Shown here piece after piece: positions 320-44,427 of a stretch of 64,000 nt of DNA. This DNA comes from Artemia franciscana. Lineage: Eukaryota > Arthropoda > Branchiopoda > Anostraca > Artemiidae. The stretch lies in contig NC_088863.1 in assembly GCF_032884065.1 (NCBI RefSeq), positions 58,780,628 to 58,844,627 on the forward strand, read 5' to 3'. The position numbers and the translations under genes were made by a program. Positions within the stretch are counted from its first letter, which is position 1. Every line of letters begins with the position of its first letter. Below the pieces are notes generated by a model. It made no database searches. It saw only the letters and a program-made list of their open reading frames with translations, and was not told the origin of the DNA.

Positions 320-698
320 CTAGCAAAAATGCACAAACTCCTCATCCGAAATATCAGCTTCACTATCAGGATCTTCCAGAGTACCGTCATCACTCTCTGA
401 GGATGATTTCCTAACTCGTTTCTTTTTGTCAAAAAGTCCCAGAGTAGCGTTTAACACCCTACACTTGCCTGTCAACACATGCTCTTTTGCACTAAGCTCA
501 GAGGCAAACAATGCTTCGCAATGTTTGCACGAATGTTTCAGGTGAAGTTTCATATGCTCTTTATAGGTTATTTCTGCTACAAAGTTCTCACCACATTGAT
601 CACATGATATCAAGGAGCCCTTCTCTATCTCTTTAGTTTTATTGATAGCTAGTGGATTCCGATCAGGTAGTGCTTTGTGTCTATCTTCAAGATAAGAC
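320..698 (-). CDS. Exon 9 (terminal): two zinc-finger modules and acidic Ser-rich tail
   Basis: Acceptor GGTTTCAG opens 379 nt ending with a stop codon. Fingers: [20 protein letters not shown] then LH (C747-x2-C750-x12-H763-x3-H767) and [19 protein letters not shown] with C794 as fourth ligand (C2HC variant). A basic KKKRVRK patch precedes an acidic Ser-rich tail ([20 protein letters not shown]). On the same strand a candidate AATAAA lies about 40 nt after the stop (plus 275-280). Confidence 0.85.

Positions 699-44427: not shown

Follow-up and report, generated by a model that had tools for sequence, protein, structure and literature searches.

The locus and its gene model

The window analysed here is the whole stretch of 64,000 nucleotides from Artemia franciscana (contig NC_088863.1, positions 58,780,628 to 58,844,627); it has 34.9% GC and contains LINE remains, AT and AC microsatellites and kilobase introns. 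Its minus strand carries a chain of nine exons, running from 44427 to 320, which was rebuilt to the base and amounts to 2523 nt, coding for 840 residues and the stop. A preliminary description of this DNA had reported eight in-phase junctions and a total length that is a multiple of three; the rebuilt chain bears out both points, all eight junctions being GT/AG and in phase (phases 2, 0, 1, 2, 2, 1, 0 and 2). The exons, and the signal following the last one, are:

44285..44427, minus strand: exon 1; start ATG flanked by G at -3 and +4, N terminus acidic, phase 2 at its end
36498..36834, minus strand: exon 2; THAP domain (C-x4-C ... AFP ... W ... C-x2-H-F ... PLPTLY), phase 2 to 0
32979..33489, minus strand: exon 3; 170 codons, without Pfam family, phase 0 to 1
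26060..26297, minus strand: exon 4; the sole THAP-BTB bridge found, phase 1 to 2, with a weak donor and without Pfam family
21387..21584, minus strand: exon 5; N-terminal half of the BTB domain
17331..17566, minus strand: exon 6; C-terminal half of the BTB domain
12981..13336, minus strand: exon 7; linker rich in Pro and Lys, and a pair of irregular zinc fingers, one with a final Cys
6718..6842, minus strand: exon 8; canonical C2H2 finger
320..698, minus strand: exon 9; one canonical C2H2 finger and one with a final Cys, basic/acidic tail, stop
275..280, minus strand: poly(A) signal AATAAA, about 40 nt past the stop of exon 9

Domain content

As had also been proposed, THAP, BTB and C2H2 modules lie on one strand and in that order, with Pfam matches in exon 2, in exons 5 and 6 together and in exons 7-9, respectively. 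The open reading frame (ORF) of exon 2 scores 24.1 bits against THAP (Pfam PF05485, cut-off 23.9, E 6.2e-05), and it contains all the zinc ligands (C2CH) and the Trp, Phe and Pro positions, with the C-terminal Pro motif, that are regarded as invariant in this domain. As to the beta-alpha-beta fold of THAP, a single-sequence AlphaFold2 model of exon 2 alone has a mean pLDDT of 35.7; among the PDB matches listed for this exon, THAP11 is the only THAP protein, with an E value of 0.18 that is level with unrelated chains, and a search of viral contigs with the THAP exon gave no match.

BTB (PF00651, cut-off 20.5) is detected with 37 bits in the ORF of exon 5 and with 53.8 bits in the model, over profile positions 3-89 of 110; since joining the two exons lifts the score, the exon 5/6 junction is supported by homology. 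The finger region, when given alone, reaches 29.6 bits against zf-C2H2 (PF00096, cut-off 25.2). By eye, exons 7-9 contain about five fingers, two canonical C2H2, two with a final Cys and one irregular, and the canonical finger announced earlier for exon 8 is indeed read there, as C-x2-C-x12-H-x3-H. Exons 5-9 link in phase, so that BTB and fingers lie in one chain, a predicted BTB-ZF protein; the best PDB sequence matches were SPOP for BTB (E 5.4e-05), and ZBTB24 (E 0.0009) and ZBTB17 (E 0.0012) for the fingers. A domain search of the complete 840-residue model, which the preliminary description had suggested, thus recovered BTB; however, THAP fell to 23.4 bits in it, just under its cut-off, and all the listed zinc-finger families stayed under theirs. 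Pfam assigns no separate family to exons 1, 3 and 4, and it reported no DNA-transposase family in the 840-residue model or in the ORFs scanned.

Coding evidence and splice sites

Codon scores were compared with those of non-exon segments containing at most 10% stops; with leave-one-out codon tables, the scores of exons 1 to 9 were reached by 1, 28, 9, 51, 32, 18, 4, 44 and 2 per 1000 null segments, respectively, these being nominal, per-exon counts from nine tests. The weakest scores belong to exons 4 and 8. The frame used in the model exceeds the other five in eight of the nine exons, the exception being exon 4, in which two reverse frames score higher. The codon tables were trained on the model's own exons, leaving out the exon under examination for the nine-exon scores, exon 4 for the bridge counts and exon 1 for the initial-exon scan; in the latter, exon 1 is the second-best initial exon on the strand, and the best one sits in a repeat block.

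For sites fixed beforehand, eight in-phase junctions would amount to (1/3)^8, and the six that do not involve exon 4 to (1/3)^6 = 1/729, but both values flatter the model, because the splice sites were not fixed in this way. With splice matrices of approximate metazoan values, the acceptors of exons 2, 5, 6, 8 and 9 rank 35, 64, 2, 54 and 17 out of 3487, while those of exons 3, 4 and 7 rank 293, 129 and 160. Among 3483 donors, that of exon 7 ranks 76, that of exon 3 ranks 83 (score 6.7, the best in its ORF) and that of exon 2 ranks 110, followed by exons 1 and 5 (both 220), exon 8 (403), exon 6 (426) and exon 4 (741). Several exons contain higher-scoring internal sites that would cut a domain; therefore the choice of splice sites was not blind. 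A further candidate exon on the minus strand, 11749-11504, with a high coding score and a strong donor, was discarded: its phases (1 to 1) are a misfit between exons 7 and 8, Pfam assigns it to no family, and it overlaps a repeat also present at 15940-16090.

Repeats and side elements

A long minus-strand LINE, whose frame is fragmented, occupies positions 37850-42760, in intron 1. It is presumably CR1-like; the reverse transcriptase is above and the endonuclease below the Pfam cut-off, and a PHD-like finger is seen by eye only. Searched against prokaryote genomes, this reverse transcriptase matched two pieces of a mussel-symbiont assembly with 29% identity, presumably host DNA, and it gave no match against viral contigs. 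Related repeat blocks are located at 4175-6450, 22900-24140 and 28460-30530 and comprise GTGTCCCGGTCGTCATTT-type minisatellites and ORFs; segments 5394-5942 and 23570-23017 are 92.8% alike over 556 bases. These minisatellites and ORFs resemble Helitron ends, and no relevant Pfam match was obtained. At 5179-5259, on the minus strand, lies a tRNA-like match with anticodon CTA (Rfam 34 bits, gathering threshold 29; Pyl according to ARAGORN), which is perhaps a tRNA-derived repeat. Intron 3 holds several diverged same-strand repeat copies at 30526-32760, about 73-81% alike.

Exon 3 and its probable upstream feeder

No Pfam family and no PDB match were found for exon 3 up to an E value of 10, and its single-sequence fold is uninformative (mean pLDDT 35.3). 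Two assignments were considered and rejected: a second THAP domain, for which the C-x4-C ... C-x2-H spacing fits loosely but no Trp is present between the Cys pairs, and a FLYWCH-like domain, which has no support from Pfam. The 56 codons that precede the first Met of this exon score 9.0 bits; with exon 3 held out of training, only 2 in 1000 null segments attain their mean, which suggests that a coding exon lies upstream of exon 3. In the initial-exon scan, which took in donors of at least 2.5 and exons of at least 12 nt, the highest score of an in-phase initial exon lying between exons 2 and 3 is 1.5, as compared with 17.8 for exon 1. Exon 2, which joins exon 3 in phase, is the only feeder found.

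The CpG-depleted domain

The base composition of the window changes close to the end of exon 2, where two further features were recorded:

36188..60452, no strand assigned: CpG-depleted domain, obtained by two-state segmentation with rates chosen by hand, with two CpG-normal stretches inside
36195..36497, minus strand: putative alternative 3' end after exon 2, as it would be used if there were two genes, with an in-frame stop, AATAAA at 36213 and the CpG edge

Three pieces of the domain are low in CpG, namely 36188-37491 (5 CpG, observed/expected ratio, o/e, 0.13), 42695-51428 (18 CpG, o/e 0.07) and 55435-60452 (18 CpG, o/e 0.13), as against 853 CpG and an o/e of 0.76 over 1-36187. The CpG-normal stretches between them, 37492-42694 and 51429-55434, hold the LINE and a reverse-transcriptase match below the Pfam cut-off, respectively. 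TpG+CpA is 1.22-1.23 in three hand-set low intervals versus 1.02 over 1-20000, the pattern left when methylated CpG is deaminated. Invertebrate genomes are methylated chiefly within transcribed units. The domain, which is sharp, suggests that a transcription unit has long been methylated here in the germline, in a genome with mosaic methylation; CpG depletion is used as a proxy of methylation in passages of PMC8857923, and in Ciona, according to passages of PMC3827831, methylation drops sharply at both ends of the transcription unit.

Of the nine exons of the model, the domain holds only exons 1 and 2. Its left edge is bracketed by the CpGs at 36186 and 36522, which places it at the end of exon 2 or no more than about 310 nt beyond that end. 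The AATAAA at 36213 lies in this gap and is one of seven, among 86 on the strand, with at least 70% T/G at +20 to +50; if the donor of exon 2 were left unused, an in-frame stop would be met at 36470-36468. The CpG o/e is about 0.2 in exons 1-2 and 0.47-1.28 in exons 3-9; comparison of CpG with GpC by Fisher's test gives P = 0.034 for exons 1-2 versus 3-9 and P = 0.051 for exons 1-2 versus 5-9.

These observations are the basis of the strongest alternative to a single gene, which we consider possible although the odds are against it: two genes on the same strand, separated within intron 2, the first a methylated THAP gene and the second an unmethylated BTB-ZF gene. The former would be germline-methylated, probably broadly expressed, beginning at about 60.5 kb and ending with a poly(A) site close to 36195; it would consist of exons 1 and 2 plus unseen 5' exons, with a 169-aa product if exon 2 were terminal. 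The latter would consist of exons 3-9 and an unseen first exon. The contrast in CpG o/e between 60452-36188 (0.13, 0.07 and 0.13) and the remaining 1-36187, the raised TpG+CpA of the low intervals, the AATAAA in the edge gap with T/G-rich sequence after it and the lower CpG of exons 1-2 are all consistent with this arrangement. However, exon 3 has coding sequence ahead of its first Met, and the initial exon that could feed it in phase from intron 2 reaches no more than 1.5. Moreover, in insects the 5' part of genes is preferentially methylated, and an edge could also occur inside one gene; one flank outside the domain, around the BTB exon, likewise has raised TpG+CpA (1.19), and the fit between the edge and the poly(A) signal was compared after both had been seen.

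Exon 4, a candidate bridge between THAP and BTB

Of the top-scoring donors of exons 2 and 3 (at most six per exon), only that at 36802 enters exon 5 in phase, and it cuts THAP off; for this reason, a protein with both THAP and BTB requires exon 4 or an unfound exon. As an internal exon, exon 4 scores 10.1; of the 12 candidates with the right phases in the interval from exon 3 to exon 5, a single further one (67 nt) equals it. The frequency of such bridges was estimated in 150 random tracts of 11.4 kb, generated as fourth-order Markov sequence, with exon 4 out of training: a bridge of at least 200 nt with phases 1 to 2 and as good as exon 4 occurred in none of them, one of at least 200 nt in any phase in 4, and one of any length in 64. 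In the real sequence, excluding model exons and hand-set transposon intervals, four loci of at least 200 nt, on both strands and in any phase, equal exon 4; with a 1-in-9 phase match, by our arithmetic, this corresponds to about 0.05 per 11.4 kb. The length-limited counts lend moderate support to exon 4 as a real bridge. When any length is allowed and transposon ORFs are counted in, a bridge as good is found in 738 of 954 real tract-phase cells; since this count had no length limit and took in those ORFs, the idea of exon 4 as pure background, to which it had led, was softened.

A terminal role of exon 4 is disfavoured: when this exon is held out of training, its score is 6.0 if taken as terminal and 10.1 if taken as internal; a terminal score of 16.0 came from a table trained with exon 4 and is not comparable with 10.1. 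No AATAAA or ATTAAA is present after it between 26040 and 23034 (3 kb). Initial exons able to feed exon 5 from 21600-32900 score 8.4 at best, with four codons.

A separation of two same-strand genes in intron 3 or 4, rather than in intron 2, appears quite unlikely on these data. The THAP gene would then comprise exons 1-3 (345 aa, with exon 3 read to the stop) or 1-4 (416 aa), and the BTB-ZF gene, of 424 aa, would start in exon 5 at Met 21565, just ahead of BTB. This Met has a G at -3 and lies a few residues ahead of the BTB match, and an AATAAA with T/G-rich sequence after it occurs at 32627, downstream of exon 3; however, this signal sits in a dispersed repeat, and the donor of exon 3 is the best in its ORF. 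An end after exon 4 is disfavoured by the lower terminal score and by the 3 kb devoid of poly(A) signals, and CpG versus GpC shows no difference between exons 1-3 and 5-9 (P = 1.0). The notion that one or more weak exons, exon 4 above all, arose by chance and that the true structure uses unfound exons is very improbable: outside model exons and hand-set transposon intervals, 27 segments of at least 60 nt on the minus and 34 on the plus strand score as well as exon 4, but the remaining eight exons are backed by phase and frame, six of them with a domain or finger motif.

A possible single gene as the favoured explanation

The explanation that we favour, with a rough probability of 0.52, is that one minus-strand gene, with coding start at 44427 and stop at 320, encodes a predicted 840-residue THAP-BTB-C2H2 protein. 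In its favour are the GT/AG in-phase junctions and the frame that is best in eight exons out of nine, the gain of BTB on joining exons 5 and 6, the finger region passing the zf-C2H2 cut-off alone and the coding sequence ahead of the Met of exon 3, for which exon 2 is the only feeder found. To these are added the weak initial exons for exon 5, the poor performance of exon 4 as a terminal exon, followed by 3 kb with no poly(A) signal, and the absence of a length-limited bridge with the right phases from the 150 random tracts. Against it stand the properties of exon 4 itself, which has no Pfam family, a donor at rank 741, a score reached by 51 of 1000 nulls and two higher reverse frames; the fact that equally good bridges of unlimited length are common, in random tracts and in real cells alike; the edge in CpG content, close to a putative poly(A) site, which parts exons 1-2 from 3-9; and the scores of the joined model, with THAP just under and the listed zinc-finger families under their cut-offs. 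Thus, of the single 44-kb gene of the preliminary description, the exon coordinates, phases and module order were confirmed, whereas the presence of exons 1-3 and 5-9 in one transcript is retained at the probability given above.

If the gene is one, its product would be a nuclear regulator composed of an acidic N terminus, a C2CH THAP domain, a region without an assigned fold, BTB/POZ and about five C-terminal zinc fingers. From what is known of these families, THAP and the C2H2 fingers may each read DNA, while BTB may dimerise and recruit corepressors; the protein could then work as a dimer, probably a repressor, that binds DNA through two different types of reader.

Exons 2-4 measure 1086 nt, corresponding to 362 codons, and have phase 2 at both ends, so that the reading frame would survive omission of this THAP block, exon 1 being in phase with exon 5. 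In a single gene, splicing of exon 1 to exon 5 makes a THAP-free BTB-ZF isoform possible. How the structure arose is more speculative: that a BTB-ZF gene took the symmetric phase 2-2 THAP exon block into its first intron, alternative splicing then giving two regulators, with and without THAP, is a scenario that we regard as unlikely, albeit conceivable.

Comparison with known systems

In BTB-ZF regulators, the BTB domain is near the N terminus. The predicted protein resembles them in having BTB followed by C2H2 fingers, but, if fused, its BTB would lie near residue 421, and its fingers are irregular. With THAP proteins it shares the zinc ligands, Trp, Phe and Pro of exon 2 that are regarded as invariant; it differs from them in a Pfam score of exon 2 that is at the cut-off, in a domain that starts from residue 60 and in a long insert after the first two Cys. 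Fusions of host genes with transposases are also known (KRABINER and others); as in these, a DNA-binding domain of the mobile-element type lies beside a host regulatory domain, while no transposase catalytic part is found in the ORFs scanned here.

The THAP-BTB pairing is already published. In Octopus, THAP genes are mostly associated with BTB/POZ and are called derived from BTB/POZ sources (Mukherjee and Moroz 2023, PMC10027918); that work treats BTB as a transposon source, a reading that is not followed here. The likeness consists in the association of THAP and BTB/POZ in predicted genes; the difference is that the word C2H2 is absent from the main text of that paper and the three-part order is not stated there. 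This was the only paper found for the pairing in a partial library, and the full THAP-BTB-C2H2 order was not found in print in the same library; thus the architecture, which the preliminary description had considered unfamiliar, is so for the triple order and not for the pairing. In the THAP passages of an oyster survey, THAP, BTB and C2H2 are counted as separate classes (PMC12111275).

ZBTB11 is a parallel, having an N-terminal integrase-type zinc domain, BTB and fingers (PMC12062965, which in the passages concerned also mentions host-transposase fusion genes). Both proteins would combine an N-terminal zinc domain of mobile-element or virus type, BTB and a C-terminal zinc-finger array; the N-terminal domain of ZBTB11 is of the integrase type and not a THAP, and, of the 828 integrase-zinc fusions of this kind counted in the same passages, 808 are in Chordata.

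Should the join not be real, the CpG edge would be a useful warning that neighbouring genes can be merged when exons are chained by phase alone; in mosaically methylated genomes, CpG depletion may reveal mergers of this kind. Should it be real, the locus would be one more case in which a BTB-ZF regulator is fused to a DNA-binding domain of the mobile-element type, a symmetric exon block being the visible route.
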